From: Utricularia gibba
Taxonomy: Eukaryota; Streptophyta; Magnoliopsida; Lamiales; Lentibulariaceae
Length of the DNA: 64,000 bases
Assembly: GCA_002189035.1 (NCBI GenBank)
Contig: NEEC01000009.1
Location: 1,674,001-1,738,000 of the forward strand
Reading direction: 5' to 3'
This document shows, one piece after another, positions 39,282 through 62,460 of the stretch. Both the position numbers and the translations under genes were made by a program. Under the pieces are notes generated by a model, which ran no database searches, had not been told where the DNA came from, and saw nothing but the letters and a program-made list of their open reading frames with translations. Within the stretch, counting starts at the first letter, position 1; the number at the start of each line of letters is the position of its first letter.

Positions 39282-40262
39282 CTACATGTCTCCAAACATC
39301 AAATGCCGTAAGTCCACAGTCGTCCCCGGAGTTGCCGCCGGAGGTTCCATGGCTTCCTCGGAAAACCCTACCGGATTTTCGCCGTGGTCCCATTTCTCAG
39401 CGGTTTCCAGCAATTCATTCCACCACCGGCTACTCGATGCTTCGTAGGCATCTCCTCCATTTATTGCAACATCCTCGTCGGCCAGATAGTCCAGCGACGG
39501 CGACTTTGAGAAGCGAGTGGGGTTCTGGGGAACAGCGCTTTCACCGCCGGAAAATTGAGCAGGTTTATAACGTGGGTTTCGTGTGTGGGACAACTTAAGC
39601 GGCCTTGGCTTGATGACGCTGGTTTCTTGCACGGAGTCTGATTTTTCGGTGTCGCCGTCTTCGGCAATGGCGGGGGCTGCAACCTTTTTTTGGAGGTGCG
39701 AGTTCCAGAAGTTCTTCACATCGTTGGCCGTCCTCCCGGAAGCCTCCCCGCGATCAGAGTCCACCTTAACAGATAACAGAAATGCACGTCTTCTAAGAGT
39801 TCGAACAGTGGCGCGATAATGTTTCATTTTTGTGTTAGAAAACACATTCGATCCGAATTTGAAAAAGAATCTGAGTTTCATGCTAATCGCCATGTTCATC
39901 TGATACGATATAGTTCACCAAAAAAGGGCAAGAAGGTTTACTTGTTGCCTAGAAGCTTGTGAAGGCGGATGAGCAGGTCGACTTCATCTTGGGAGAAGCG
40001 AGTTCTGTTTATATCTGGCCGCAAGTAGTTCAACCACCTCAACCGGCAGCTTTTCCGGCACCGGTTCAATCCTGAAGCGCCTCCCGGTCAGAACAAGAAG
40101 AAACGAGTAAAAGAAAACTTGTGGCTCATTCATAGTCTGCGGGCTACCTGCTCTCAATGGGACCAAGTGCCATTTTCCTTCTCCATAAGTCTCAATGCAT
40201 TTTTTCAACAGAGCATCTTCTGCCTTGCTCCATGCTCCTTTCCGTACACCTGCGGCTGCCAT
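39282..40262 (-). CDS. R2R3-MYB of the anthocyanin type (MYB1 of cluster), one frame break
   Basis: Three exons: 40262-40148 (115 nt), 40071-39942 (130 nt), 39764-39282; about 242 aa. Seen: R2 repeat ([47 protein letters not shown]), R3 with the bHLH-contact helix [15 protein letters not shown], and the eudicot anthocyanin-MYB signature ANDV followed by KNFWNSH. C-terminus: [11 protein letters not shown] (SG6-motif-like), [10 protein letters not shown], and terminal [10 protein letters not shown]. In exon 3 the frame breaks at 39735-39737 (CCC on plus): [10 protein letters not shown] and [10 protein letters not shown] lie in different frames. Restoring one base rejoins them. These proteins partner bHLH/WD40 to switch on anthocyanin genes. 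Same exon sizes as the other two MYBs here. Confidence 0.88.
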
Positions 40263-40575
40263 TTCTTAGAGAGAGAGAAAGAAAGGAAAAGGAGGATGCA
40301 ATGCAGCACACTGAATCATCTCGGGCATTAAAATATACATGAGAGCCACATTCCTCCACAGTTACCACCCTACGTGTTGAGTTCACCACCACTTGAGGTA
40401 ATCTTAACTACTCTTTCTTTATTCTTTCTGTCGTACGATCACATATGAATTTAAAATAGATAATAAATAGTGAATAGCTTAAATAATATACGGTTTATAA
40501 AATATCACATTGAAAACAAACCGTGGGCGAAGTCACCTTTTGCACTAGAAACCTCCAATCATTTTGATTAATATT

Positions 40576-40719
40576 GATATGTAATTTCTTATATAATTAA
40601 CTATTTTAATATAAAATAATGATATAAAATTGTTTGTTTTAATAATTGATATGTAATTTCTTATATAATTAACTATTTTAACATAAAATAATGATGTAAA
40701 ATCATTTGTTTTAATATTT
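40576..40719. repeat. Tandem duplication, 72-bp unit
   Basis: The unit starting GATATGTAATTTCTTATATA recurs at 40576 and 40648 with only a few differences, ending each time near TTTGTTTTAATA. Part of the same unit recurs in diverged form about 40830-40905. Directly visible. Confidence 0.85.
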
Positions 40720-40764
40720 ATATAAATAACTGATGAAATTTCATCAGTCACGTAAACATATATG

Positions 40765-40905
40765 GAAATTTAAATACACAAAAAACGTGAATAATATTAA
40801 AAAAATAAATTTAATTAATTAATATTAATATATAATTTTTTATATACTTAATTATTTCATTTTGAAATTTGACATAACATTGTTTGTTCTAATACTAACC
40901 AAATT
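40765..40905. repeat. Member of a dispersed AT-rich repeat family
   Basis: Contains AACGTGAATAATATTAAAAA, then TTAATTAATTAATAT, TATAATTTTTTATATACTTA and ends TTGTTTGTTCTAATAC. Similar word order is found near 43655-43790 and 58415-58530, suggesting copies of one short noncoding element. Confidence 0.5.
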
Positions 40906-41159
40906 CAATCATTCCAATAACAATGTGACACCTAAATAAACCACTCATTTCTTGCAGAATTGGTTTGTGTAATCCCTATTAGAGCATTCCATCTTTTTTT
41001 CACGCATTTGGGTCTGCGGGGAGTCTGAGAACCAGTTTGGATCCTTGTTGCTCCCTCCTCCCGGCCTCATACACCTCGACTCCATCTCCCAACTTAATAA
41101 GCTCTCCTGCAGCACAATCACGGGCCTAAACTGAATACCTATAAGTCCTTGACTGCTAT

Positions 41160-41650
41160 CCCTTCACTGATCGATAAGTACATTCATCTGGTGTCGCTGG
41201 TGATGGGTCCCTCCACATAGGGCCCACACACAAAAAAAAAGAAAAAAAAGAAGAGAGTTGGTGCACGGGGTTTGGTGTGCCAAACCAATGTGTGCCCTCC
41301 CCTCTCTCCCTCACACAAACACACAATAGTTGAAAAACTCTCAAGACTATTAGGTGTTTTGAGTAAGTTTTTCGGTTTCCGATGGTAGAATAGGGAAAGA
41401 AGAAAGATAGTACTCTTTACTATTCGTGTTTCTCGCCCGATAGAGTTTTCAGGGAAAGGGTAGAAAGAAATAGTAAAATCCGGTAGTTTACTGAGGTAAA
41501 TCTCTTTGTATTCACTGTGGTAAATAGTAAATTTTTCTCGAAGTTGAGTGTGGACGTTACCCTTATTTTGGGGTGAACCACGTTAAATCTCGATGTATTT
41601 TTCTTGATATTTGCGGTCAATTTTATTGTATTATATCGACTACGATCAAC
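41160..41650 (+). mobile_element. Candidate solo LTR / Copia LTR remnant
   Basis: The block ends with GGTGAACCACGTTAAATCTC followed by a T-rich tail, a pattern I associate with the 3' part of plant Copia LTRs. No flanking second LTR, primer-binding site or gag-pol sequence is visible. Edges are approximate and the call is tentative. Confidence 0.3.
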
Positions 41651-43654
41651 GGCTGACCCATCTCCAGTTCCTTTTTTTGTCCATGAAGGTGACCCTTGAA
41701 CACATGCCCCATCAGAAAAGAAGCCCTTTTTCTGCGGAACGGGGGGATGAACCAGTCGCGATCAAGGCCAGGGCCATCGCCTCAGCTGCGGCTCCTTTGT
41801 TCGTAGACATTAGATTGAACTTGTAAGAAACAGTGTTGGAATTTCGTGTTTTTAAATAATTCAGAAAACCCTTTTTTTTGAAAAAAAAAAAATCTTACAC
41901 GAGCCTATATCACAAAAGCAATGCTTTCATCTTGGTAAGGTGGGGGCCTCCAGTGGGGCCTACAAGACAAAAATAAAAAAATAGAAAATCCAGGTTTAGT
42001 GACTTTTTGTAGGGATGAACAAATTTCAGTTAATGATCGAAAAAACTGATTAAGGGAATCGAAACGGAAAATTTAGTTGGTTTCGGTTAGTGAAATTTGG
42101 CATACATTTATTTTTTAAAATAATTGAATAAATTTATGTATTTTTTTAACAATATTTTTAGAAGTCTGTTAATTTGGTAACACAACACCGTACCCAATAG
42201 TGCGATTCGATTTTAATTTTCACTTTATATATTTATATTCAGTTTCAATTAAAATTATCCTAGGAGTGTGTTTGATACATGAATAAATTAATATCACAGA
42301 CAAGAGATAGTATATAAAGAAGAGGTATATGACAATATAATTTTATTTCAATCCTTATACTTCTATTATTTTATCACATATTCATAGTATAACTTATATT
42401 GAATATCATTTATCCCATCTATCAAATATATTATAATAATAAAAAAATTTCACCCATATATTTACTGGATTCAAGGATATTTGTTTTTTTATCTATATTT
42501 ATTGGTAACTGACAAATTTGCACTTTCTGTAGTAGTTTAGAGTATTAGGATTTAATTTTTTTGGATGATTTTTTATTTATTCAATTTTAAATAACCTAAT
42601 TGCAATACACGATATGATTTTTAAGCCACACTTCTTCTCCATTGTCATCTCCATCCTCATTCAAAAATGAGATTGATATCTATTCTTTCAAATAATTCGA
42701 TATTGGGTATTTTAGAAGCGGTATTAAAAAACTTTAGTGTGCAATGGATTTGAGGATATGTAATCTTGTAAGTAATTAGATATTCGATATTGATCTATTT
42801 CGAACACCAAACATTCACTCCTGAATCATGTTATATTTCGATGTATTATTGTTTTAGTAACGCTTCCGCACTATTACACAATTTGTGCACAAAAAATTTG
42901 GGTTCGGATCCTACTATAAATCCTTTGCTTTCAACCAAAAGATCTAATAGGGGTTTGTGACTTGGGGAGAAAAATATATTGTTGTTTTGGGGGGAAAAAA
43001 TAAATACATTCTTGCTTATCTGTCCTTCGTCTCCCCCACAAATCTCAACTGAAAGTCATCTGCAGTGCTAGCTGGGTATCAGCCTATCATCATCATTCCT
43101 CGTGCTCATCTACCATTCCCATTCCTCCTCCCTCTGCATGCCTTTTAAATTTTTTGAAGAAAAGAAAACCTAATCGGAAAGTATTTGCAGTGAGTTACCC
43201 AATCTGAACTGATTCCTGTTGACTATACGACAAGGGGACGCCGACAAACCGCGCACTTTCCAAGTATCGATGGTATGGAAAATCTAGCAAGTGTCTGCTT
43301 GTTGAAAGAAGAAAAAAGATTGCAGACAATGAAGCGGTAAAAAGATTGGAAGGAAGGAAAAATAGGACCACGAGGTCACTGTGAGTGTTAACCTCCATTT
43401 GTCGGAGTCGGACTCGCTTCTGTGTTCTTCGATGTTTGGGAATTTTCATGTTTAAAGAGTTGAACATCAATCATGCCCGTGCCACGTGCTGCTGCTTCTT
43501 CGTCGAGGTTTCATCCTGTAGAAACAAAAAATAACCCGACAATTTCCGATAGCCTTGGTAAATGGAAGAACGCCCATGAACCAGAGATGTGAAAGGCTTT
43601 CAGTTACTGTAGTAATGGAGGTGGCCACTTTAAATTAACTATTCAATTGGTTAC

Positions 43655-43790
43655 ACTAATACACACTAAGTTTAATTACACAATAAATATAGATCACAAT
43701 ATAAAAAATTAAATATAATCGATTATTAATAATTTATAATTTTTTATATATTTATATTTACTGATATAAAATTGATTGTTCTAAAACATG
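43655..43790. repeat. Member of a dispersed AT-rich repeat family
   Basis: Shares the words TAATTTATAATTTTTTATAT and TGATATAAAATTGATTGTTC with the copies around 40.6-40.9 kb. Edges are not defined. Confidence 0.45.
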
Positions 43791-44212
43791 TCTTAAATTT
43801 AAACTTATTTTTGATATAGTTAAAACTTGTATTTTTTTATATGATTGTAGGTAGTACGTAAAACATACATCAATCTGGTTTTATCATCTAAGTTCAATTT
43901 ATCTTATTTTTTAACCGAAAGTAAAACCAATACAAGATCAAAACCAACTTGCCAAAGTGCAGAAACTCAGCCTGATGTGCTAGAGCATCTGAATCGTCTA
44001 GGTTTTGATGGTTATTAGTGTTTCTTTTTTTGTTGTTTGAATCTTGGATGGCACCCAGAGAAGTGGCTTCGTTCAGCATTGGCTACGCTCAGATGTGGAA
44101 GACGTGAGCCATGTGGTCTTCCTGAGTTGTGTTCGTGTGATGCGGTTCTGTTGTTGTTGAGCAGCATATAGTCCTCCTCGTACCTCTTCTCATCATGCTT
44201 CATTGAAGAATA

Positions 44213-45227
44213 ATGGATAAGCCCTTTACCGGTGTACGGAAGGGAGCATGGAGCGCGGCGGAGGACGCCCTCCTGAGGAAGTGTGTTGAATCTTATGGAG
44301 AAGGAAAGTGGCACTTGGTTCCACTGAGAGCAGGTAAACTCTGTGCAACACATAAGTTTGCCAAGTTGATGAAGGACACATGGGAGGGTTTTGCCGTGCA
44401 GGACTCAACCGGTGCCGGAAGAGCTGCAGGCTACGGTGGCTAAACTATCTGCGCCCGAACATAAACCGGGCTTGGTTCTCGGAGGACGAAGTTGATCTTC
44501 TCATCCGCCTTCATAAGCTTCTGGGCAACAAGTAGTTTGCTTTCTTTCCCTTTTGCTCCTTCGTGCATCATCTAACGAATGGTGATGAAACTGGTTTGCA
44601 GATGGACTCTGATCGCCGGCAGGCTGCCGGGGAGGACTGCGAACGACGTGAAGAACTTCTGGAACTCGCATGTTCACAAGAAGGCCGCCACCGCCACCGA
44701 CGTGTCGACAACGTTTCTCCCGAAAGAGAAGACCGGCGTTGTCATCAAACCCAAACCCCTTCGTGTGTCTGCAACACAAAGCGCACGTGCTCCCTTGGAT
44801 AAAGGGTCTCTTCTAGGAACATCTACAAACAAGAACCCTAATTTATCAAACCGTGGGAAGAAGCAAATGGGTTTGCTAATGGAACGCCGACGAGCTTCCG
44901 GTTGAGCGAGGTGCTGCAAACGGCAACACAGGAAGGGAAGCAACCCCGTGTGCTTCTTTAGAAAAAACTCCGCTTTTGGAAAGCAGTTGCGTTGCTGTTA
45001 ACCCTAGTTTTCCGACATCAGGTGATGAGGTCATCAAAGACGGAGGAGGAGAAGGCTTTTATGGATCACCGAGTAGCTGGTGGTGGCCGGAGAATGCAAC
45101 AGCATACGATGGGTGCCGAAACCTAAATTCACTGGATTTCTCCGAGCCTCTGGATCCAGTCCCGGAGGCGGAGGCGATGACGGTGGACGATGTCGACTTG
45201 CTGCATCTACTGTTTCAAGTCTCTTGA
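44213..45227 (+). CDS. R2R3-MYB of the anthocyanin type (MYB2 of cluster), disrupted C-terminal region
   Basis: Exons 44213-44333 (121 nt), 44402-44531 (130 nt), 44602-45227. The MYB domain is intact: [69 protein letters not shown]. An SG6-like [11 protein letters not shown] follows. The open frame then stops at 44905, but the expected C-terminus ([19 protein letters not shown]) is read from another frame starting before 44976. Two single-base losses, near AAA 44848-44850 and CCCC 44944-44947, would give one 292-aa frame. Either this is sequence error or the gene makes a truncated MYB lacking its activation region. It is divergently oriented to MYB1. Confidence 0.82.
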
Positions 45228-47550
45228 AGCTCAAAAGGGGACACAGAACTCCATGGAAATCAAGCCTCAAGCTCCTCATTACCAACAGGCAAAAACAACT
45301 CTTGTTGCAGAAGATAGCAAGCCATGATTGTTTTATTTTCTAATCTTCATCCCCATTCATCAACAGTATATGAACTTTCCATCAATTGAATAACCTAAAC
45401 CCTCTCGTAGTGATCGAATGGGGAAAAAGAGCACGACTTTTTCCTTCATAAAAACAGTAGATTACACAGATTCTAGGTGTGTACTGGGTTTACACACAGA
45501 AAAAGCGCAGCTGCATCCATGACAGAGGCGAAGAAGAAGCTTGAAGAAAATGGCACTTCCCAGGAAGATGAAGAAGATGTACCTAACTGAAAGGAGATAC
45601 TCTGCATCTAGTAAGCAACGAGAATGCAGGGAAATCTGCTAAGGAGCTCCATGCCCAAATGCAGGGATTTTAATCATATGAATTTAGGGTATTCACACAT
45701 GTTCTTCCATGTAAATTACTGTCTAAATGAAAATGTTAATAAACAAATGGAGGATTTTTTCCACGGAAAAATAAGCCACTTTTGTTCTGAAAAAAAGAGC
45801 ATTAAGTTTGAAGAAACATTTTTTTTTTTCAAAAATTGCTTGTTGACAAGCAGGTTTAATTAACCCTAATTAAAGAAATAATGTTTCTATAAGTAAACTA
45901 ATTCAAAGGTATGTTGAAATTCGAAAGTAATACCAAAATTTAGTTATATAAATAACAAGAATTAAATCACATTAAAAAAATATTAGGTCAAATAGATTAT
46001 TAATGATATTCAATTTTTTTATCTATTTGATTATTTAAATTTAATTTACTAATATGTATTGTTTGTTCTATTATTATTTAATAGTTTCAATAGTTAAAAG
46101 TACATTGAATATTTTGAAAAATTATATAAAATAGGAATTTTAAAATTTTGTAATTTGAATTAAATAATCTACCTACTTTTATCTTCATAAAATAAAATAT
46201 ATTTTCCAATAAAAAAATAATATTCATTATAATATAGTACAACGTATACGTATGTTTTTTTAATCTCATTGTATATTCTAATTGGAGTTTTTTTTATATT
46301 CTTAGGTCATTACAGTTACCCCACAATTTTATGACAAAAAAATAATGTTGTGATTAATGCTCAACTAATAATCTTTTTTTTTTCTGGAGTTGAATAAATT
46401 TTTGCATTATTTTATCGTACGGCCAAAAAATGCCTCCGTAACTTTTAATAGTTTAAAAGGTTTCTTGAGGAATTTAATAGACGTCACTGGAATAATAATT
46501 ACGTCACGCGGATGACACGTCAACGGTGAAGTCTCAGCTTGCAGTAACGGTAACACTGTTCTGCGGTCGGACTTGACGGACGCGTTTTTCTTTTCCTGGT
46601 TCTGGGTCTGGTTCTTGTGGGTTACGGGAGGGATTCAACATCCGCCTTAGCTGGATTGCAAATCCCAAAAGATCCCATCTTTTTTTAAAAGAATTTTGTT
46701 CTGTCTCTTTCTCTCCCAGTTGTATGTCAGAATTGGATTTGTATGTATATGTGAGGGTTCGATCTGGGTTTCACCCACATCCCTTGGGAAGGAGGTTTGA
46801 GTCTGTGTGTTTGGAGCCCGCGGAGGGTCAAGCTTCGTTGAAGCTGCTCACCGCCGATTGTTCCGTAGGGGTGTTTTTTTCTTGGGCTGTGTTTGAAAAT
46901 GGGTATCTTGTTTGATGGAACGTTTTGTCAGAGATGGCCAGCCATGCTCCAGAGGAGCAGAGCAGATAGCTTGTGAAGGAAATAGTAAACAATTCCTCTT
47001 AAATTATTGTCGTTGCATTTAATTAGTTGGTCATTCTTCATCAAATGCAACCGAAATTATTTCTTTAATTTTTGGGCATCTTGACTTTCTCTTATAATTG
47101 TTTAGTTGGAGCTTGGAAGTTTCGTATCATTTATATTCCTTTTTCTCCATCTGGTGTCTGCTGTGAGAGCTTTTCCCAAGTGTGAATTCGGCCCTCGGGG
47201 TGTTGCCTAGTGGAGTTCACTGTCGGTGGCGAAGAATCAATATCTAGAGCCGGATTTCCGGTTTTGTTCTCCGCCATTGTGCTAGAAAGCTTGAATCTTT
47301 GGTCATTTTTGTTGGTGGCTGGGGTTTAGGTCCTAGCGATAGAAAGTGGGAACTAAAAGAGTCTTGAGTGGGTTTACCCAGTTTTCGGCATTTGTGATTT
47401 CGGATGCACGGTTTCATTGCTTCTTCAACGCCGGACCATGAATCGATTTTTTGAGGAGATCCCATTTCAGTTTATAGATTGAGGCTTTAGCACTGGTGAG
47501 AGTTTCTGGGATTCAAGCAAATCCCCTCTTTTCCGGGTTTGTATGTCCGA
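45228..47550. other. Intergenic DNA upstream of the cellulose synthase
   Basis: 45640-46430 is AT-rich. 46440-46560 holds clustered ACGTCA motifs. 46690-47550 is probably CESA promoter plus 5' UTR (possibly with a leader intron; splice limits not clear). No other gene is supportable. Confidence 0.5.
46481..46522. promoter_or_regulatory. Triple ACGTCA (TGACGT) motif cluster
   Basis: ACGTCA occurs at 46481, 46501 and 46517. TGACGT is the core bound by TGA-type and related bZIP factors. The cluster lies about 1.05 kb upstream of the CESA ATG. Function is inferred from motif clustering only. Confidence 0.4.
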
Positions 47551-50500
47551 ATGGCTATGAACACGGGAGGAAGGCTGGTTGCTGGCTCTCACAATAGGAA
47601 CGAGTTCGTGCTTATAAATGCAGATGAAATTGGAAGGGTAAGTATTTTGTAACTGATGTATATTATTCATCTTCTTTGGCAACTTAAACTGTATTTTCCT
47701 TTTTTAGTTGCTTGTGAAAGTTAAAGCTGCTCTTCACGCAGTTGCAATTTCCTTGTAATCCATGCTCAATCGGGTCGCTGTTTTGATATCCGTAAAATTG
47801 GATTTGTTTTCGAAGTTTTTCAGCTCATCTGTTGATTCTTATTTTCATTTTCATTGTCTGATCATTTTAAGTTCTCTCGACAAAGGTTGGTATCTTAATC
47901 TTTTCTCTTCCTATATCCAAAAGATCTTCTTATTTGTAGTTCATTGTTGATTGAGATGATGTCAATTCCTGATTCCTTGCGTCTTTGTAGATTAAATTTG
48001 TTCACGAGCTGAGCTGTCAGACGTGCCAAATTTGTGGGGACGAAGTTGAGATAACGGTGGATGGTGAACTTTTTGTCGCCTGCAATGAGTGTGCTTTCCC
48101 GGTCTGTAGGACTTGTTATGAATACGAGAGAAGGGAAGGGAGCCAATGTTGCCCTCAGTGTAAAACCAGATACAAGCGCCTCAAAGGTTTTTTTCTCTCA
48201 TTTTCTCTAATGCACTTTGCCGATTTCTTCATTAATTGTATGATTTCACATATGCTTATCTCTTCCAGGTAGCCCTAGAGTTGAAGGTGATGAGGATGAG
48301 GATGGTGCAGATGATTTGGAATATGAGTTTGACTACAGCAATACGGACGCCTCAAACTTTTCACATGGAACTGGCAGAATAGCATCTGCCCATGGAGGTT
48401 CAGACGGACTCGCTTCAAAGTCCAGGCAAGACTTGAGACCACAGAATCCAGAAATTCCTCTTTTGACTTATCGTGAAGAGGTATTCCTGTGTGTTCTTGT
48501 TTTTTTATAATTCATTCTCAAACGATGCGACTTAGCATGGTCATCTTCTACTTGTAGGATGCAGATAGTGAATATAACCAGAGCGCTATAATAGTTCCTT
48601 CGCTTGCTAGCTATGGAAATGAAGTACGAGGCCCCCCTGTTAATTCAGGAAGTAGTAAGTTAATGCATATTGCTCTATTGCTTTTATTGTTCAAACGAAG
48701 TGTTATTTACTTGGTGTGTTTTGGGCATCTAGCAAATCCCCGGCCTATGGTGCCTGAGAAAGACATCGCATTATATGGCTATGGAAGTGTTGCCTGGAAA
48801 GATCGTATGGAAGACTGGAAAAGGAGGCAAAATGAAAAGCTTCAAGTAGTGATGCATCAAGGGGCTGATGTTCCTAAGGATTTAGATGCATATGACCCAG
48901 GAATGCCCATGTGAGTAAATATAGTCTTAGTCATCTGCTTCGTTGTTTCATATGTTTGTCATTGCATGAAAACTGAATATTATCCTTGTGCTGCTCAATT
49001 TTATTAGGATGGATGAAGGGAGGCAGCCACTGTCAAGAAAACTACCCATTTCTTCTAGCAAGATAAACCCTTACAGATTGATTATTATTCTTCGCCTTGC
49101 AATTCTTGGCCTTTTTTTCCATTATAGAGTACTAAACCCGGTGCCTGATGCATTTGGCTTGTGGTTGACATCGGTTATTTGTGAAATATGGTTTGGTGTG
49201 TCATGGATCCTTGACCAATTCCCAAAATGGTATCCTATTGAGAGGGAAACTTACCTTGATAGGTTGTCTTTCAGGTATTTTAAGTGGTGCATAGTGAAGG
49301 TGGTTGCTTAATGGAAACCTTTACGGTCTTTGACAATTTTCTAATTTTTCAGGTATGAGAAAGAAGGGCAACCATCAGAGTTGGCAAATATTGATGTATT
49401 TGTTAGCACAGTTGATCCCATGAAAGAACCTCCGCTTATTACAGCAAACACTGTGCTCTCCATTCTTTCAGCAGATTATCCTGTTGATAAGGTTTGTTGT
49501 TATGTCTCCGATGATGGTGCAGCCATGCTTACATTTGAAGCTCTATCCGAAACGTCAGATTTTGCTCGAAAATGGGTTCCTTTTTGCAAGAAATTTAACA
49601 TTGAACCACGTGCTCCAGAGTGGTATTTTTGCCAGAAGATGGACTATCTAAAAAAAAAAGTTCATCCTGAATTTGTGAGAGAAAGGCGTGCCATGAAGGT
49701 ATTCATTTCATGAGATAAAACAGATGCAAAGGTTCTTGATCTTTTTGCTAATAATTCTCTCCTTTTTTTGTTTATTGTGTACAGAGAGAATATGATGAGT
49801 TCAAAGTTCGAATCAATCGTTTGGTAGCTATTGCTGAGAAAGTTCCTGAGGATGGATGGACAATGCAGGATGGTACACCATGGCCTGGAAACAATGTCCG
49901 GGACCATCCTGGAATGATCCAGGTGGGTGACTCTTCTGTCTTCCCTTTGGATGCATCCTTTCTTTATTTTTTTTAAATGGAGCTTGTTGATACAGTATAT
50001 TCTATTGCTTTTATCCAATGGAGATTTGGTAAATTATATATTAAGTTGAGGGATTGAGACATCAAATACTCTTTATGTTCCATATGTTGTTTCTGTACAT
50101 TTTCTGGTATAATAATGGAAGGAGCAACGCACTTATCCAAATCTGAACCTAATTGTATATGCAACATTTTTTTTTTACAACGGCATCTCATTTTGAACAG
50201 GTGTTCCTTGGAAATGATGGTGCTAAAGATGTAGAGGGTAATGAGCTCCCTCGTTTGGTATATGTTTCCCGTGAAAAGCGGCCTGGCTTTGAGCATCACA
50301 AGAAGGCTGGTGCCATGAATGCATTGGTAAGGCCTGTGTGCATACTGTAGTGAGATTATGACCCTTCTCTATTTATGGGAATCAAGGAAAAGCACCCACT
50401 ATTTAGCTTGTATTATATTACCTATCCAGCTGCCAACTTATTTGTTTTCAACATATTCAGATTCGTGTGTCAGCTGTTCTATCAAATGCCCCCTATATCC

Positions 50501-52487
50501 TGAATGTTGACTGTGATCACTACATGAACAATAGCAAAGCACTCAGAGAAGCTATGTGTTTCATGATGGATCCTACTTCGGGAAGGAAAGTTTGCTATGT
50601 GCAATTTCCACAAAGATTTGATGGAATCGATCGTCATGACAGATATTCCAATCGCAATGTCGTATTTTTTGATGTAAGTTTATATTCCTTCGGCTATTCA
50701 TTTTCCCAATCTCTTTCTCATGGAAAGTGAGTGAATTCGTTGAATTATGCAGATCAATATGAAGGGCTTGGATGGCCTTCAAGGACCTATATATGTTGGA
50801 ACTGGATGTGTCTTCAGAAGGCAGGCTCTTTATGGCAAAGATGCACCTCCAAAGAAGAAACGGCCAAGCAAGACCTGTAACTGTTGGCCGAAATGGTGTT
50901 GCTTTTGCTGTCGTTCTAGGAAAAGCAAGAAAGGCAAGGGTAAGAAGGAAAATAAGAATTCGAAGCATAGAGAAGCCTCCAAGCAAATTCATGCCCTTGA
51001 AACTATTGAACAAATTGCTGAAGGTAGAATTCATTCTTGTCATTGGTTCTGAAACTTTTATTTCAAAGTTATAATGTAAGAATATTGAAAAAAGTTTCAT
51101 GTAACTCACAGATCCAAAACCTCTGAGTACTTCTCTGTCTCAAGAGAAACTTGAGAAAAGGTTTGGACAGTCTCCTGTTTTTGTGACTTCAACCATACCT
51201 CTAGATGGTGGAATTCCTGATGGTGTTAGCTCCGAGGCACTTTTAAAGGAAGCTATTCATGTCATCGGCTGTGGTTATGAAGACAAGACAGAATGGGGGA
51301 AGGAGGTAACCTCATCACCTTAAGCTTCAATCATTAAAATGAACCATTTTTGGACTCTTCATGTTCTAAGCATGAGCTGTTAATCAGGTTGGGTGGATAT
51401 ACGGTTCAGTGACTGAAGATATTTTGACGGGTTTCAAGATGCATTGTCATGGGTGGCGTTCAGTTTACTGCATGCCAAAGCGGCCTGCATTCAAGGGGTC
51501 TGCTCCTATCAATCTCTCAGATCGTCTTCACCAAGTTCTTAGGTGGGCTCTTGGATCTGTTGAGATTTTTCTGAGCCGACACTGTCCCATTTGGTATGGA
51601 TTTGGCGGTGGATTGAAATGGTTGGAAAGGTTCTCTTACATCAACTCTGTTGTGTACCCCTGGACTTCATTACCATTGCTTGTATATTGCACGCTGCCAG
51701 CCATCTGCCTTCTTACAGGAAAGTTCATCGTACCTGAGGTATGTCCCTCTGCAATGCAACTATTTGTCTAGTCGTGATACTTTGCATGCATGTTTCTCTC
51801 GATGCTTTCATGGTAGAGAAGAGTAATACTCAAACATGTTTGCTTTTGCTTGGATTTCACTCATCTAACCTGTAGCTCACACGAACATTACTCTTCCAGA
51901 TCAGCAACTATGCCAGCATAGTGTTCATGGCTCTTTTCATCTCAATTGGCGCAACGAGTATACTCGAAATGCAATGGGGCGGCGTTGGGCTGGACGACTG
52001 GTGGAGAAATGAGCAGTTTTGGGTGATCGGAGGAGTCTCTTCGCACCTGTTTGCATTGTTTCAAGGCATGCTAAAGGTGCTTGCTGGTGTGAACACCAAT
52101 TTCACAGTCACCTCAAAAGGTGGAGACGATGGGGAGTTCTCTGAGCTATACATTTTCAAATGGACCAGTTTGCTGATCCCACCAACCACCCTGCTGATCC
52201 TGAACATAGTGGGGGTGGTGGTCGGCATTGCGGACGCCATTAACAACGGTTATGACTCTTGGGGTCCCCTGTTCGGTAAGCTTTTCTTCGCGATCTGGGT
52301 TATCATGCACCTGTATCCATTCCTCAAGGGACTGACAGGGAAGCAAGAGCGAGTCCCCACAGTGATCCTCATCTGGTCGATCCTCCTTGCTTCTATACTG
52401 ACCCTCGTTTGGGTCCGGATAAACCCGTTTGTCTCGAGAGACGGACCGGTGCTCGAAATCTGCGGGCTCAACTGCAATGACAACTAG
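47551..52487 (+). CDS. CESA: Cellulose synthase catalytic subunit, CESA6/2/5/9 clade, 14 exons
   Basis: Exons 47551-47637, 47991-48186, 48269-48480, 48558-48654, 48733-48910, 49008-49274, 49353-49698, 49785-49922, 50201-50326, 50461-50673, 50753-51023, 51112-51305, 51388-51738, 51900-52487; 1087 aa, frame intact throughout. Seen: [24 protein letters not shown]-type zinc finger ([13 protein letters not shown] ... [14 protein letters not shown]); two N-terminal membrane helices (about residues 270-330); catalytic core with [19 protein letters not shown] (DxD), [10 protein letters not shown] and [10 protein letters not shown] (QxxRW); a class-specific Lys/Cys-rich region; and six C-terminal helices. 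The N- and C-termini (LEICGLNC) place it with primary-wall CESA6-like isoforms. It polymerises UDP-glucose into cellulose in plasma-membrane rosettes with CESA1- and CESA3-type partners. Confidence 0.97.
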
Positions 52488-52873
52488 TAAGAGGAAGAAG
52501 AAGAATGGTTTTGGCATATTGATGTTGCAAGAGAGGAATAAAGATGCGTGTAGATAGAAGCAGCAGCAGCAGGGGTGTGGAGAAATCCCTTGATTTGCTG
52601 TTCCTTTTGATTTGGGGTTTGGGATATACCACCCCTGCTTCTGCTGGGCTCGGTACTTTTCATTCCATCATCATGTATCATCGCCATGATTTTTTGTAAC
52701 TTCATTGTGCAAATACAGTTACACAAGAGTCAAGATGTCATCTTTAGTCCTTGATGTCATAGTAGGAATGGCGAATTCAGCATCTGCTGTAGTAAGTAGA
52801 TGTTATACACACTCGAAGGTACAAAACAATAATCAATGGAGAAGAAGAAGAAGACAGCCTGCGCCCTGCAACC
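52488..52873. other. Convergent 3' UTRs of CESA and LIKE-COV
   Basis: Tail-to-tail spacer of about 390 bp without coding signal. Confidence 0.55.
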
Positions 52874-54367
52874 TTAAACAAGCCTGGTGAGGGGGACTCT
52901 GGTTGTGTTACTACTAGCAGAAGAGATGTGGGTGATCTTCTGTGGCATCGTCATCCCTCCAGATACAATGATTTCTGCAATTCACAACCACCCTTAAAGC
53001 TAAGAACATGCAGTTGTTGATTTGTCTGATTCATGGCGGATAGGGGAAGCTCAATGCGTACCTATTCCTTCACGGATGGAGAGATTAGGCCTTAGAATGT
53101 CCTTGGAACTAACCAGGACAATATCACCGATGTACAAGTGGTTCGTGGGGACAAAAACACTGCACAGCTCTTCGTCTCCTTCGTCTGTCTGAAGGCAGAA
53201 AAAGGCTAATAGAGTGATTACAGCAGGGGGATGAAGTAAAATATTGTACCTGGAGGAGAACTGATGAAGTGATGAAGCCAAATGCATATTCTCCCATGCG
53301 CGGGTGCCGAATGATTGCCACTTCCTTAAAGGCTGTTTTGTTCTGGTCTACAGAATCAAAAGGTTTCCGGGAATCAAAGGAATAAACCGGCGCTGAGAGT
53401 CAAACGGGGTAAGGATGGTGTGATCTACCAGGAGAAATTGCAGAGCTGATCTGCTTGGAGGCTGAGTAAATGTGCCTAATGAAGGGCATTCGTTTTATAA
53501 CCCATTCTCCGACCCAGAAAACCGTCGCGCCCAACCAGGAAGACACGAAGACCCCAACAAGAAACACAAATACCAGCGACGTAACAAATCCAAGTCCTGC
53601 ATCGATAGTAACATCAAGGCACATATCAGAGCACTCCTACGAAGCAGATCAATTTCAAGAGTACAAGACACCGCTAACTTTTCAAGTTTTCTCTGCTTAA
53701 AATGTCAACATACTGCAAACGGGTTCAAAGATAAGAAATGCTGATGGGATTCATAAGAAAGAAGAACCACTGACCAAATATTTCAATGTCGAGCTGCTCG
53801 TACAGAGGGCGAAAGAAACCATCAATAAACTGAATTAACCACCAGGTTATGAAGAATGTAACAGCAACTGGAAATAGAACTACGCTGCAGCCACAGGGTT
53901 ATTTTGGCATCATGTCCTTAACGAATAAAGAGCAGGATCAAATATCTACATCGCAAGAAAATTCATTACCATCCAGTCATGAATTTCTTAGAAACCCAGC
54001 TCTGCAGCACGTAACAGCAGGCCTGGAGCATCAGTAAACAATCAATCTAAGAAGCTTAATGATCATTCCACATAAAGATCACATTTTTTTCTCTAACCGG
54101 TGCAGAAACAAAAAAAAAAACGATGAATTTTCATATAGAAAGAGAAATATTCCCCACCCAGAAACAGAATCACAAAAAACCCAGTTACGGTATGGTGCAA
54201 CAGTAACCAAAATTGAGTTCACTGAAGTAAGGACTGACCCTACGAGTTGAGGACTCAGAAGAAGCGGGGGAGGATTTCACGGAATCATCGAGATCTCGCC
54301 CTTCCTCCTCTTCTTGGCGAAGAGTTTGACTCAGAGGCACAGATGAGGCATCTTTTTCAGATCCCAT
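52874..54367 (-). CDS. LCV: LIKE-COV (DUF502) membrane protein, 7 exons
   Basis: Exons 54367-54239, 54022-53970, 53884-53775, 53596-53429, 53347-53250, 53188-53062, 52974-52874; 261 aa. Seen: acidic N-terminus (RQEEEEGRDLDD); LQSWVSKKFMTGC; hydrophobic helix 1 (VVLFPVAVTFFITWW); helix 2 (LGFVTSLVFVFLVGVF); IYSASKQISSAISPDQN; IIRHPRMGEYAFGFIT; VPTNHLYIGDIVLV; IREGIEIIVSGGMTMP. This is the CONTINUOUS VASCULAR RING / LIKE-COV family, linked in Arabidopsis to vascular patterning and Golgi or vacuolar trafficking. All junctions keep frame. It converges on CESA. Confidence 0.93.
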
Positions 54368-55244
54368 TTTCGGCAAGCAATAAAACAGATGGGGTTCTCG
54401 GAATTCAACGCTGTTTCAATTGGGAAGATGAGAAACCGATCCCCGAAGACTGAAACGAGGAAGAGGAAGCCGGTGAGAAGAAAAACTAATAAATTGTAGT
54501 CAAGGGTCTTCGTTTTTCATATCGTGATTTTCAACGAAGGATGTAGATTGACAACCAATTAACTTAATAAATTCTGAAACTTACGCTACAAACACACACA
54601 CACTCGCCCGAAAGAAGAAAAACCAATATAGCCTCATCCAATTGCAGTGAATATATATACACACACCTGAGGCGTCGTTGCGCAAGCAAGAGACACAAGA
54701 ATGAAAATGGTAGATGACTCAGACGATCCCCAGTAAATTTCTAGATTATCACATTAGCTACATCAATAGTCACAGTCGCACTTACTATCAATGACAACCA
54801 AATCATGGACAAAATTAAAAAGCAACAGAAGAGGGAAACTCTTCCCCTCCCCCGCCGTCTGCGCATATCCAATCTGATCTAGTTTTGTCCCATTGATCCA
54901 GAAACACAGATGACTTGGAGATCTCCCAACTCATCGAAGAAGAAGAAGGTATTTCAATGAGAAATTGGGGGGAATATCGAGCGACTATTTGTGGAATAAC
55001 CGCCATTCCTAAAATGTAATTTGTGTGGGTGGGCCCACGGCCCAAATTGATGATACGAGGGGACGGATGGGGCTAATTAAAGCGTCATTTTTGCATACGT
55101 GGATGGCGGGCCCACTGCCCTACACGAAACAAAATCCAGAGACCCGCCACGGCGGCACCGACTAGGGAGTCCAACACCGACACCGCGACACGTAAGACAC
55201 CCGCTGCCAAATTTGAAAACGTGGATAGGATACGACGGATACTC
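54368..55244. other. Intergenic DNA, LIKE-COV promoter and CYP78A 3' flank
   Basis: 5' UTR and promoter of LIKE-COV with CA-rich tracts near 54590-54665, then GC-richer sequence (55010-55240) that is the CYP78A 3' flank. No other gene seen. Confidence 0.5.
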
Positions 55245-56924
55245 CTAGGATGCCACCTTGCGCGGCACCGCCACCGCGGCCAACGGCTTCTTCATCTCCG
55301 ATGAAAGCTTCAGGATCTCCGTCAGGTCCACGGGGTTCCTTGGATCCTCGCTCCATTCGAAATGGCGCACCAGTTTCGCCACCCACGTCGCCACGACCAC
55401 CATCCCGAGATTCTTCCCTGGGCACACACGCCGGCCCGCGCCGAAGGGGGCCAGACGGAGGTCTCCGCCGCGGACGTCGATTTCGACGCCGCCTTCGCTT
55501 GGAATGAACCTCTCCGGCTTGAACTGGAGAGGGTTTTCCCAAATCTCAGGGTCGTGGGTGATTGACCACATGTTGACCATGGCGGTGGTGGTGGCGGGGA
55601 TCACCATTCCGTTGCTTAGCTTGACGTCGGTGGAGGAGAGTCGGGCCCATGAGAGAAGCGGGCCTGGTGGGTGGATTCGGAGAGTCTCCTTCACTACTGC
55701 TTGGAGATACGGAAGCGATGCGACGGCGGAGTCGGTTAGAGAATCCGCCGTGTCGACTTCCCGCCGGAGCTTCGCTTGAATCTCGGGATGCAGCACCAGT
55801 TCCGCCATTACCCATTCTGTCAGTAAAGCCGTCGTATCAGTTCCCCTGAAGATCATTTCCTGAGCGGAAGCAAGCCTTTTTTATGTCAGAATATCGGAAT
55901 ATACTGATTCTGTACTCTGAAATCACACACAATTTCGACTTACCCATAAAACAGCGATCATGTCGTCTTCTTCCAGCTTATCCTCACCATCCAAACTCAG
56001 CAGAATATCAACAAAAGAGCCGGTTCCCGATGCGCTCTCGCTCTTTCTTTCCCGGTGTTCTGCGATTATCCCTTTCACAAATTTCCTCACGCGAACAACA
56101 AGTTTCTCACAGCGAGAAACAATGTGATTCGGGTCGTAAATGTACGACGAAAGCCATGGGAGAAAATCGGAGAAATTAAAAGCGCCGAGAAGCTCGAATC
56201 CCTCCCTCACCATTTCATTCAGCTCTCTTACCTCCTTTCCATCCCCTGCCGCATCGTACCGCTTCCCAAAAACGCTACCCATTATGTTGTTCAGCGCCGC
56301 CGCCTGCAAGTGCTCCCTCAACGAAACGACGCCGAATTTCTCCATATCCTGGGAGATGGCCTTCGCCATGAGGGCGCAGTCATTTCGACGGCCGGGTTCG
56401 TGGGCGGCGATGAACCGTGGAGCGAACAGGTGGGAGGCTGCGATACGGCGGAGGAGGCGCCAGTAGGTACCGTTCGGAGCAAAACCCATCGCTCTATCAA
56501 ACATCAAACTACGCGCCGACTGTTTAATCGGGCGATTAGCGAAGCTGGGTGAAGTCAAAATTTCCTTAGCAATTCGCGGGTCGGAGGAAACGACCGCTGG
56601 CGTTGCGCCGATACTAAAAGCCATGAGATCCTTGGCGTTCATGCACTCTGCCATTCCAGCCAGAGTTCGGTGGGGTAATCCGCACCTCAGACTAAACAAG
56701 CTCCCGAAAACAGGAATCCCTCTAGGACCAGGAATCGGAGTAGCACCGTTGTTTCTGTTCTTCCATGCGGCGGACCCTCCCGGAGTGCAGAACCAGGTAA
56801 GAACGGCGACGGAGAGAAAAGCCAGGAACAGGGATACCAGAAGATACTCATCTAGAATGGTTTTCGATCCCAGAAACGCCGGAAGCGTAAAGACCCACCA
56901 GTTAGAATCGTGAGTAGCAGCCAT
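55245..56924 (-). CDS. CYP78A: Cytochrome P450, CYP78A family
   Basis: Two exons (56924-55944 and 55859-55245), 531 aa. Seen: N-terminal membrane anchor ([18 protein letters not shown]), proline hinge [16 protein letters not shown]78 block [21 protein letters not shown]-helix [14 protein letters not shown]-helix KETLR (ExxR), PERF motif, and haem loop [10 protein letters not shown] with the axial Cys. CYP78A enzymes (KLUH/CYP78A5, CYP78A7, A9) promote organ and seed size non-cell-autonomously; their substrate remains unsettled. The frame is intact and GC content is high relative to flanks. Intron position after ...VLW matches CYP78A genes, where EMIFRGTDT begins exon 2. Confidence 0.96.
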
Positions 56925-57029
56925 TGCAGAGCTAGAAAAGATAGTGATGAGAGCCTAGTCGAAGATAGGGATGGCTTTTGAGAGGAACAAGTGATTTCTG
57001 TGGGTGAACGGAAAATCCCCCTGCTCATA

Positions 57030-57038
57030 TTTATATAA
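57030..57038 (-). promoter_or_regulatory. TATA box of the CYP78A gene
   Basis: Reads TTATATAAA on the minus strand, about 105 bp upstream of the CYP78A ATG. Position and sequence fit a core promoter. Confidence 0.55.
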
Positions 57039-58414
57039 CCACACTTGTATTAAAATATTATTATTTTTTGTCTCTCTCTCTCAAACAAATTCTATGCTCC
57101 ACCCCTTTCTTTTCCTACATTATTTATAACAATTCCAATCTCAATCTTGATTGTGATGATAAATTTGTTGAAATTAAGTATTCGGTAAGTGTAAATAATA
57201 TACGTGAAATTCAAATACATAAGAATATACAAAAGATTAGATTGGTATACAATCTATAATACAGTTGTGTTTCAATTTGTATTTATGAATAATGTACTTT
57301 ATTATTATTATATTAAGACTTGGGAGAAAGTAAAAAGAAAAAAAATCGAAAATAGGGTTGTATACTATTGAGGGAAGGCGATGGATCCCGGTGCAGAGGA
57401 TCCCCGTACGATACGGACTGTGTGGGAGGGCAGTTTGGGAAGGAAGGATGCGTGCTTGTTGTTGCTGAAGAGACACTGAGGCTGAGCCCCCGTCTCCTCC
57501 AGTGTTGACCCCTCCACCGTCACTTCGCCGTCACCCCCATTCATTTCTCCGACGCTGGATCTTCTGGGGTGGGGCCCGGCCCGAACATCGACGGCTCCGA
57601 AAATGGACAAGTCATGGGTGTTGTCACAGCCGCGGCGATGAGTTGTCTCCGCGGCTCCTGAAACGAGGCCAGTAAGATTTTGACCGAGAGCCTCCCCAGG
57701 TGTCGTTTTCGTTGGTTTCGGTGTCGTTTTGCTTTTAATTGTGTACCACTTACACTACCCTACCCCCTCCCCCGCCACCTGCCACTGGCGGCGCCGCTGC
57801 CGGAGGCTTTCTTTCTCCGACGTTTCGATGCCTGCAGGTCACTACATGCATATTCGCGCCAGTCACTAGAGAAACACAGACGTGTCATACGGCAGCAGCT
57901 CAGTTGGGTCTTTTCTTTGGGACCCACTTGGGTTGGGTTTCCAGGAGCGAGATGACACTTTTCCGGCATGCACTGCCTGCATGGGCTCGCAGTAATTGGC
58001 GTTTCCGGTCATTGAACACGACGAAGATCCGGTTTAACCGGCCCCGGCCGCTAAAGGAGTACCAGACTCGCTTTAGCAGAGGAGTTATGAAGTGCAGGTT
58101 GGCAGCCTGCAGGAGTAGGGTTACCAGCAGCAGCTTTCTTTCTTCACAGAGATTTTACGACATCAGGGTCTCCGTCTGCTCTTCTCTTTTGCATTCAATG
58201 GCGATGCAATGGTGTTCTCATCCATTAACCAATTTCCTCCTCTGCATTCAAATCAAATGATTTCTGCTGACAAGACAAGAACGCAGCAGTTGTCGCGAGT
58301 TAAAACTTGGGGGCGGGCCTCTCTCCACCAACCTCCACACCCATCCAACTCAACTCCATATTGATTATTACCAATGTTGAAATTCAGTATATAATGGATG
58401 ATACCAACTCATAC

Positions 58415-58530
58415 TAAGTTAAAGTACATAAAAAAACGTGAATTATATTAAAAAAAATTGGCTTAATCAATTAATTATAATTTATAGTTTATTATATATT
58501 TGATTATTATACTTTTATTTTTCGATGTAT
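58415..58530. repeat. Member of a dispersed AT-rich repeat family
   Basis: AACGTGAATTATATTAAAAA followed by TTAATCAATTAATTATAATT and TATTATATATTTGATTATTA mirrors the copy at 40765-40905. Edges are not defined. Confidence 0.45.
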
Positions 58531-59017
58531 TATTATGTATTATAACATAAACATAGTGGGAAATGAAGAGTGAGAGTAGGTTTTGATATTATTATTTTTC
58601 ATTTGAACAAATTGATCTAATTCTTATAATTTTACGTTTTATTTTAAAAAAGGATTTGTAACAACTTGGAAACTCGATAATGATAATCGATCCGGATAAT
58701 AAGATTCACAAAAATGTGTGTTTGAATTGTGCTTATAAGTGAAGTGATTGGCACAATATTGATCAATGTTGTATATGTATCTATTTATAAATTGGATGTG
58801 AAATATCCACAATATATTTAAAGTGAAAAATGGTCTGTTATTTTCAAATATGGTCAAACTAAAACCGGCCCACCGGAGATCTGTACTTCACGGCCCGATA
58901 TTTGAAGCTCTTCGGCCCGTTAATTCTGATCAGTTGCCTTGGTGTGCGCCACATCCTTTATCCGTTTATCGGGGTTATTTGGTGGAGATTGGAGAAGAAG
59001 CTGTCTTTCGTTGAGAG

Positions 59018-60878
59018 ATGCTGCATCTTCAATCCTCACCAGTCGTATCTCTCCCTAAATTCTCGGTTTTAGGTTTCTCCAATGCTTTTACGGGGCGCCG
59101 AAGATTTTTTGTTCGATCATCATCGTCAACCGTGCCGGAGATCGATTTCTCTGACCTCGCCTCCGCGCTTGAGAAGGTATTTCGTCGTTTTCTTGCGTTA
59201 TGGACTGGATGATTTTGTGTGTGTGCTCTAAATGGGGGTGTATTGTGTTGATTTTCGGCATTTTGAGTTTCGATTCGAATACCGTTTTCGGGATATATAT
59301 GTGATTTATCCATCTGTAGAAGGACAGCAATGCTGTCCGAGAGGCGCTTGATCGGTTGACCGAAGTCGGATGGGCGAAGAAATGGAGTTCTCAACCATAC
59401 GTCTCACGACGTACTGTCAGTTTTTATAATGCATTTTGCCTTTGATTTTGTGTTTTTAATTCATGCTTCATATTGAGCATTTCTGCAACAGACATCCCTC
59501 CGGGAGCTGACATCTCTCGGAATAAAAAATGCTGAAGGTCTTGCTATTCCTAGTGCCAGAGATGATGTATGTCTGGGGAGCTTGTTTTATCATTAATGCC
59601 AATGAACTTTGATTACATGTTTTATTGAGTTGAAGTTGCTCAGGGATGCAGGCTGCTTTTCTCTTCACTGTGGTCGGTGTAACTGGGTTTTTGGGTCTTC
59701 TCGCTGGTCAGCTTCCCGGGGTATTTGTTATTCGGATTGGATTTATAAGTTGATCTTATTAATACGATTTCATGCCATTCATTCATTCATCCCCTTGATT
59801 GATTTCACAGGATTGGGGCTTTTTCGTGCCTTATTTGCTTGGCAGCATCTCTTTAATATTCCTTGCTGTGGGCAGTATTTCTCCAGGGTACACGACAGCC
59901 TCTGGTTTTGCGAGTATACCATTGTGTTTATGTTTACAATTTTTCCTACTTGTTATCCCCACATGATGCAGGTCGCTTCAGGCTGCCATAAGTGGATTTT
60001 CTTCCTTTTTCCCTGATTACCAGGAGAGGATTGCTAGGCATGAAGCCGCTCATTTTTTAGGTACAAGCCTTCCTATCTTGGTACATTCTTGAATTATAAA
60101 ACGATACCAATGTAGTGGGACAAGAAAATACAGAGGTGAATGACCTTCTCACATGGCTGAATGTTCGATTACAACCTGTAATATGTATGCTAGAAAACGT
60201 ACTGTCGTTGTGTTGGTTCAGTTCATAAATCCTTTTTTTGGGAATGCTCATTACAGTGGCTTACCTGCTGGGCCTTCCAATCCTCAACTATTCACTGGAC
60301 TTGGGCAAAGAACATGTGAATCTCATCGATGAGAGACTTGAAAAAATTATCTACAGCGGGCAGCTTGATGCCAAGGAGCTAGACAGGTGCACCTTTTGCA
60401 TTCCCCAATGCTGCACTTAGCCCGAGCGCTCTCGTTTACATAAATGTTATGATTTTGAATCATCCCAGGTTAGCAGTTGTGGCAATGGCAGGGCTTGCGG
60501 CAGAAGGCCTACAGTATGACAAAGTTGTTGGCCAATCCGCAGACCTTTTCACCCTCCAGGTTGGTCCGCTCATTGCCTGATCCTCAAAAATCGTCATCTA
60601 GCGCATGACCCGTGTCTCCCTGCTTCCAGAGATTCATCAACAGGAGTACACCGAAGCTGAACAAGGATCAGCAGCAGAATCTTACTCGTTGGGCAGTAAG
60701 TTTTGTGTTGTCGAATCACTCACTTGAAACCACAAACTGAGATTTTCTGTGGGTTCAGGTTTTGTTTGCTGCGACACTGGTCAAGAATAATCGGCTTCTC
60801 CATGAGAGCTTGATGTCGGCGATGAAGAACAAAGCCACCGTTCTGCAATGCATCGAAGCAATAGAGAAGGTGGCGTAA
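59018..60878 (+). CDS. Plastid membrane HExxH metalloprotease-like protein (VIR3 / At5g27290-like), 10 exons
   Basis: Exons 59018-59176, 59320-59415, 59492-59566, 59652-59720, 59811-59887, 59972-60060, 60257-60386, 60469-60559, 60630-60695, 60759-60878; 323 aa. Seen: Ser/Arg-rich transit peptide; REALDRLTEVGWAKKW; two hydrophobic segments (AAFLFTVVGVTGFLGLLAG and VPYLLGSISLIFLAVG); the zinc-protease motif HEAAH within ERIARHEAAHFLV; then the FtsH-M41-like helical part with VVAMAGLAAEGLQYD. There is no AAA domain. It resembles Arabidopsis plastid proteins such as VIR3 and At5g27290, described as FtsH-like proteases lacking the ATPase. Whether it is an active peptidase cannot be told; the HExxH is intact. 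All junctions are GT-AG and in frame. Confidence 0.82.
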
Positions 60879-61646
60879 CTGCTACAACTTCGACCATCTT
60901 AATCTCTCCATAGCCTGCAAAACAGAAATGCCACATCACATGAACTGCATAGTCAATGAAAACATATACATATTAGATCAAGACACCAGCATAAGTGTAT
61001 ATGTTTTTTCAAGACACCCTCCTATATCACATGAGTTTGTAAGTATAATTATTTGAAAGATGATATACTAAAAGTGAAGTGTTTTCTTTAGAAAGTATTT
61101 AAAATTACGAAATTAAGTGTTCGGAACTAGTAATATTATACAAAAAAGATAAATTGTGTTATTTGATATCATATATGGATCAACTTACTATTATCAAAAT
61201 AAATTGATCATCTTAATTTAGATTTTTTAATTAAAAAAATATAAAATCATGAAGTTTTGATAATTGGAATTAATAATATCATTTATTTGATAAAAAAATT
61301 GCTTAATATTCTTGAATCATTCCAAAAATATCATATAATTAGGTAATTGAATGAATGTTGTATATTAATTAGATTGGTAATAATAATAATTATTATTATT
61401 AGGTAAATATATAATAATATTATTAAAATGAAAATATAATTTCCTCCTCGTTTGGGACAAGCTCAGGAACCTGTATGAAATTCAGAGGCGTCGCTTAGCT
61501 GGAATTGAGTGGGTTGGGTTCCACGTCTACATTTAGTTTTACTCCAACAAAGGAAACAAAAGCTGCATTTATTAATATTTAAGCCTTTTTTATTGGATAC
61601 TACCATTAGCGGAGCACTACACCAACATGCAGCAGAGAGGTTAACT
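60879..61646. other. Convergent spacer between the HExxH gene and MYB3
   Basis: 3' UTRs of both genes flank an AT-rich centre (61030-61430) with a TAA/TTA palindrome. No gene seen. Confidence 0.5.
61378..61401. repeat. Perfect 24-bp TAA/TTA palindrome
   Basis: (TAA)4 is followed directly by (TTA)4, giving a perfect inverted repeat able to extrude as a hairpin. A similar shorter one lies near 26831-26848. Confidence 0.9.
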
Positions 61647-62460
61647 TCAAATGTCTTCCAACATGGAGGATGAGAACAGACCCAGATCAATCTCGGTTGA
61701 CGTGCCCGCCGGAGTCCGCGGATATGCTCCGACCCGGTCCTCGAATCCGCTTTCCATCATTCCCAGCAACTCGCTCCACCAACTCAAGGACTCACGATCC
61801 ACTTCCGCCCTCGCTTCCGCCTCCCGGGTTCCCACACCCATGTGATTCGACGGCGTGCGAGGTTCTTGTGCGCGGGACAAGCGCATAGCTCGAGGTCTTA
61901 TCACGACGGCCTTCTGTGTCTTGTAGCTGCACGTTTTAGAGCCGTCCCCGGTGGACAACCTCTTGTGCACGTGCGAATTCCAGAAGTTTTTGACGTCGTT
62001 TGCAGTTCTCCCCGGCAGCCGCCCGGCGATCAACGACCATCTGGTGAAGTTTTCGTTCGTAAACCCGAGAACTAACTTCGTACACAGAATTCGCTTATGA
62101 AAAAAAAGATAGGTTTGTTTCTCCTCCTACCTGTTGCCTAGAAGCTTGTGGAGGCGGAGGAGAAGATCGACTTCGTCTTCTGTGAAGCAACTCCGGTTTA
62201 TATCTGGGCGAAGGTAATTCAGCCATCTCAACCTGCAGCTTTTCCGGCATCTATTCAGTCCTGTAGCAGCAAGTTTTGTTTATTATTTTCTGGAACATTA
62301 AACAAAAGAAAAACCAAGTACTGAGTAGAAGGTAGGTACCAGCTCTGAGTGGAACTAAGTGCCACTTTCCTTCACCATGGATCTCGATGCATTTCCTTAA
62401 GAGGGCATCTTCCTCCTTGGTCCATGCTCCTTTCCTTAATCCTCGTACCTCTTTCGCCAT
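61647..62460 (-). CDS. R2R3-MYB of the anthocyanin type (MYB3 of cluster), intact
   Basis: Three exons: 62460-62340 (121 nt), 62260-62131 (130 nt), 62040-61647; 214 aa with an unbroken frame. Seen: [46 protein letters not shown], bHLH-contact helix [15 protein letters not shown], then [18 protein letters not shown] and FWNSHVHK. C-terminal: [16 protein letters not shown] (SG6-like), [11 protein letters not shown], and an acidic tail [15 protein letters not shown]. It is the clearest functional candidate of the three MYBs for controlling flavonoid pigmentation with bHLH/WD40 partners. The intron positions are identical to MYB1 and MYB2, which supports recent duplication. Confidence 0.92.

Follow-up and report, generated by a model that had tools for sequence, protein, structure and literature searches.

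An old cluster of three SG6-type R2R3-MYB genes in Utricularia gibba, two of them with broken reading frames in the assembly

The 64,000-nt stretch of Utricularia gibba DNA analysed here (the window) contains three R2R3-MYB genes, M1 to M3, which very probably form an old cluster of SG6 MYBs of the AN2/ROSEA/PAP type, with M3 most likely an activator of anthocyanin genes within an MBW complex. The best reading of the locus is that of a real but ordinary, ancient cluster of SG6 activators. In this assembly, where the reading frames of M1 and M2 are both broken, M3 alone is complete as a conventional gene.

The original prediction had described three R2R3-MYB genes in this region, and all of them are present at the positions given, with first exons of 115, 121 and 121 nt and second exons of 130 nt in each case. 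The gene models, for which the window was spliced by hand, are the following:

39282..40262, minus strand: M1, SG6-type R2R3-MYB, exons 40148-40262, 39942-40071 and 39282-39764 (115/130/483 nt)
44213..45227, plus strand: M2, SG6-type R2R3-MYB, exons 44213-44333, 44402-44531 and 44602-45227 (121/130/626 nt)
61647..62460, minus strand: M3, SG6-type R2R3-MYB, exons 62340-62460, 62131-62260 and 61647-62040 (121/130/394 nt)

All introns of these models are GT-AG, and the three genes share the three-exon, two-intron layout expected of SG6 and reported for anthocyanin MYBs (PMC3731294). Repeats R2 and R3 both match Pfam PF00249 (E-values of 2e-34 in M3, 3e-32 in M2 and 4e-27 in M1), far above the cut-off, so that the MYB identity of the genes is not a matter of chance. 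Each gene thus has an R2R3 domain, but the R3 repeat of M1 is split by a frameshift. The frame of M3 is intact and codes for 214 aa. By sequence, the nearest solved structure is that of WEREWOLF (6kks).

The orientations of M1, M2 and M3 (minus, plus and minus) bear out the earlier remark that the genes do not form a simple head-to-tail array. Its interleaving with CESA, LIKE-COV, CYP78A and HExxH genes, also described at the outset, applies to the interval between M2 and M3, whereas the gap between M1 and M2 contains transposon-derived DNA:

41200..41651, strand not assigned: between M1 and M2, element resembling a solo LTR (TGATGGG...CAAC), flanked by the near 5-nt target repeat GCTGG / GCTGA (match 4/5)
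47991..52487, plus strand: CESA (cellulose synthase), Pfam PF03552, zinc-finger and catalytic exons, between M2 and M3
53400..54515 (approximate limits), minus strand: LIKE-COV gene, from a reading of the ORFs, between M2 and M3
55245..56954, minus strand: CYP78A-type cytochrome P450, Pfam PF00067 positions 2-264 then 265-447, between M2 and M3
59000..60880 (approximate limits), plus strand: HExxH (HEAAH) gene, from a reading of the ORFs (RHEAAHFLG), between M2 and M3

The solo-LTR-like element is 85-91% identical to pairs of LTRs lying about 4.6 kb apart on contigs C3, C328 and C4, and one full-length copy of this type of element is flanked by 5-nt target repeats (CTAAG). In addition, positions 42249-42435 of the window are occupied by a short, MITE-like dispersed repeat (about 185 bases), of which the genome has many copies at 74-83% identity.

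When the genome to which the window belongs (516 contigs, 100.1 Mb in total) was searched for further SG6 copies, three more genes were obtained, all with open frames: M4 and M5, which lie 5 kb apart on the plus strand of contig C402, and M6 on contig C2. The first intron of M5 (locus L032, 1772-2612) is GC-AG, and this gene no longer has the WW core of the other SG6 copies; M6 has no acidic end. The [A/S/G]NDV signature occurs as ANDV in all six copies, and the bHLH motif [DE]Lx2[RK]x3Lx6Lx3R as DLL[IL]RL[HQ]KLLGN[KR]W[TS]LIAGR (definitions for SG6 in PMC8063865 and PMC3731294). The ANDV signature and bHLH-interaction helix that M1 to M3 were thought to share are accordingly seen in all three, but the ANDV of M1 is out of frame relative to the protein start. 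The strict C-terminal motif KPRPR[S/T]F was not found in any of the genes, where the variants RPRAMRL, KPKPLRV and KPRPLKL are present instead. Since this motif may not be indispensable and is variable outside eudicots (PMC8063865), we used it as a supporting and not as a deciding feature. The similarity of the C-termini that had been put forward holds in part, in a WW core (WWNELL, WWWPE, WWSELL) and an acidic/hydrophobic end.

In a maximum-likelihood tree, M1 to M6 and AmROSEA1 fall together within SG6 as a single clade (UFBoot 98-99), the basal SG6 node being weakly supported (UFBoot 12-26). The reference sequences of this tree were all entered by hand; the WER row matches PDB 6kks over the aligned stretch. 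Forcing M1 to M3 together with SG5 or with SG15 was rejected by the AU test (p=0.001 and p=0.02, respectively), which excludes both of these identities. The anthocyanin-type identity proposed at first is upheld by this phylogeny, and M1 to M3 can be placed in SG6 on their motifs and tree position.

SG6 MYBs are in general activators of late anthocyanin genes that work in MBW complexes. M3 would most likely bind DNA through its two MYB repeats, while its R3 helix would dock on a group-IIIf bHLH to form a MYB-bHLH-WD40 complex, which may in turn switch on DFR, ANS and other late genes of anthocyanin synthesis. Both the pathway to be controlled and a candidate bHLH partner exist in the genome: ANS lies on contig C255 (66-71% identity), several DFR exons are found in order on contig C1 (991-993 kb), and a IIIf-type bHLH, whose N-terminus was assigned by reading the translation, is present on contig C496 (locus L050). 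The ANS and DFR query sequences were entered by hand.

Pairwise Ks values between the R2R3 domains are mostly 1.1-1.9 (1.25 for M3 and M4), several pairs being higher or saturated, and Ka values are 0.03-0.15. In a codon tree built on the full alignment, M1 falls outside M2, M5 and M6 (support 97-98), which indicates that the M1/M2 split is old. Contig C402 carries a collinear, inverted block homeologous to the window: counterparts of the gene at 6.9 kb of the window, of the AAA gene (22 kb, weak match), of the 34.4-36.7 kb region, of M1/M2 and of M3 lie at 577, 570, 557, 542 and 536.5 kb of C402, respectively. The Ks range and the presence of M5 and M4 on C402 exclude a recent head-to-tail expansion, and an M3-like and an M1/M2-like lineage predate the duplication that gave rise to the C402 block. 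No clear partner of M5 could be chosen between M1 and M2, as the protein tree of R2R3 gives weak preference to M1 and the full-alignment codon tree points to M2/M6. For the four genes between M2 and M3 (CESA, LIKE-COV, CYP78A and HExxH), no match was obtained in C402:500-580 kb; they were either lost from the C402 block or inserted in the window. The C2 locus was rejected as a third homeologous block, the MYB being the only gene shared within 30 kb. Two recent whole-genome duplications have been described in U. gibba, whose genome is about 100 Mb (PMC8333044). Having lost much non-coding DNA, this 100 Mb genome nevertheless retains six SG6 MYBs at three loci, and their DNA-binding domains are strongly constrained despite Ks values above 1.

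The cluster shares with the Antirrhinum ROSEA1/ROSEA2-VENOSA and Petunia AN2-type systems the R2R3 domain with ANDV, the IIIf bHLH helix and the three exons, as well as the grouping of M1 to M6 with ROSEA1 and the WW core near the C-terminus. It differs from them by an altered KPRPR[S/T]F motif, by mixed orientations and by the four unrelated genes between M2 and M3. Arabidopsis also has several SG6 copies, some of them clustered (PAP1, PAP2, MYB113 and MYB114), but the Utricularia cluster is old (Ks above 1) and recurs on a homeologous block. Similarly, Digitalis purpurea (Lamiales) has three MYB75-type paralogues, expressed in different petal regions (PMC13134276), and resembles Utricularia as a Lamiales plant with several SG6 copies.

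In M1, a 1-nt frameshift in exon 3 falls within R3 and leaves a conceptual product of 97 aa. The original prediction had overlooked this lesion, as well as the age of the duplicates, their sharing with a homeologous block and the lack of the strict KPRPR[S/T]F motif. The R3 repeat of M1 reads LPGGRPTM followed by a stop, the corresponding sequence being LPGRTANDV in all five other paralogues of the genome, and the difference lies at a G run that is GGG in M1 and GGGG in M2 to M5. M1 contains no other stops or shifts and its R2R3 domain is as constrained as those of the open copies, so that the shift is either very recent or an assembly error. An alternative acceptor inside exon 3 was considered and rejected: it could restore the frame, yet would delete 11 R3 residues and give no normal R3. 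The 97-aa product would keep R2 and the bHLH-binding helix, but neither the recognition helix of R3 nor any of the C-terminus.

In M2, the frame of the standard three-exon reading closes at 44905 after 184 aa, and the homologous C-terminus (SSWWWPE...) persists downstream of the stop in another frame. The frame change lies in an additional stretch of exon 3:

44834..45010, plus strand: extra segment of M2 exon 3 (about 166 nt) between two 11-nt near-direct repeats AACCCTA[A/G]TTT, with the frame change inside it

This segment is missing from M1, M5 and M6, and it is single copy in the genome, which rules out a known repeat. The suspicion that the middle copy lacks its activation region is correct for the three-exon reading, which stops before that region. 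The region itself is still there, either out of frame or after a putative third intron. The 184-aa product would have the full DNA-binding domain without the activation region.

The breaks in M1 and M2 would be expected to reduce the function of both genes. We give slightly less than an even chance to the view that the two genes are in fact functional, the M1 shift being a residual PacBio indel error and a short third intron rejoining the C-terminus of M2. The U. gibba assembly was made from PacBio reads with HGAP (contig N50 3.4 Mb, PMC5793159), the length between the repeats of M2 (166 nt) is suitable modulo 3, the frame would be restored by many possible GT-AG introns, and the M2 C-terminus is still similar to that of M5. 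However, there are 54 in-frame GT-AG intron choices in this stretch of exon 3 (for example 44853-45021), so a frame-restoring fit is easily obtained by chance and means little; moreover, no third intron is present in the other genome copies or in typical SG6 genes, and the M2 donor at 44853 is weak.

The breaks may instead be real and recent, with M1 and M2 becoming pseudogenes and M3 and the C402 and C2 copies carrying the remaining anthocyanin control, a reading that we regard as plausible without calling it probable. It is consistent with M1 and M2, two of the three neighbours, being broken independently when M3 to M6 are all open, and with the frames of the flanking CYP78A and CESA genes, which are unbroken where Pfam coverage crosses exons; these two frames are no more than a qualitative control for indel errors, since genes that were noticed by their long frames form a biased sample. 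A precedent exists in white Petunia, accounted for by premature stops in AN2 (PMC9778481). On the other hand, the M1 lesion is a shortened G run, a common long-read error, and any loss must be very recent in a gene that has no second lesion and is constrained like the intact copies. The AN2 loss-of-function alleles of Petunia axillaris likewise disrupt the frame of an SG6 activator (PMC9778481), but intact paralogues remain in Utricularia.

It is very improbable that truncated M1 and M2 products are synthesized and serve as brakes, holding bHLH partners without activating targets. M1 has a complete bHLH-binding motif and a stop in its last exon, and M2 retains R2R3 and the bHLH motif, but the short forms show no sign of conservation in other copies, and M1 and M2 could equally be dead or mis-assembled. 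More specifically, we consider it very improbable that real breaks produce short M1 and M2 proteins which compete with M3 for bHLH, so that one cluster would encode an activator together with its own brakes. The ancient SG6 activator cluster that we prefer is a pigment-gene cluster of known kind, which may be partly decaying. Real breaks would mean that pigment regulators are now decaying within a cluster that is otherwise retained; false ones would call for caution with single-base indels in this assembly.

Some additional features were observed in the window and in the related contigs. Between region 34444-36661 and C402:556.7-558.9 kb, conservation is strong on both strands and in several frames, which exceeds the expectation for coding sequence only; the Ks of the region is for this reason unusable. 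One aligned protein stretch is open in this region, and the ORFs tested there have no Pfam family above the cut-off. One MYB was found twice with identical R2R3 (loci L003 and L004), on the 38-kb contig C5 and on C412, suggesting that the small contig is redundant. Finally, a single peroxidase gene at 2.5-3.7 kb of the window has four copies on C402 (543.8-555.2 kb, loci L032 and L054), which lie in both orientations and out of collinear order; the gene has expanded locally, in tandem, in one homeolog.
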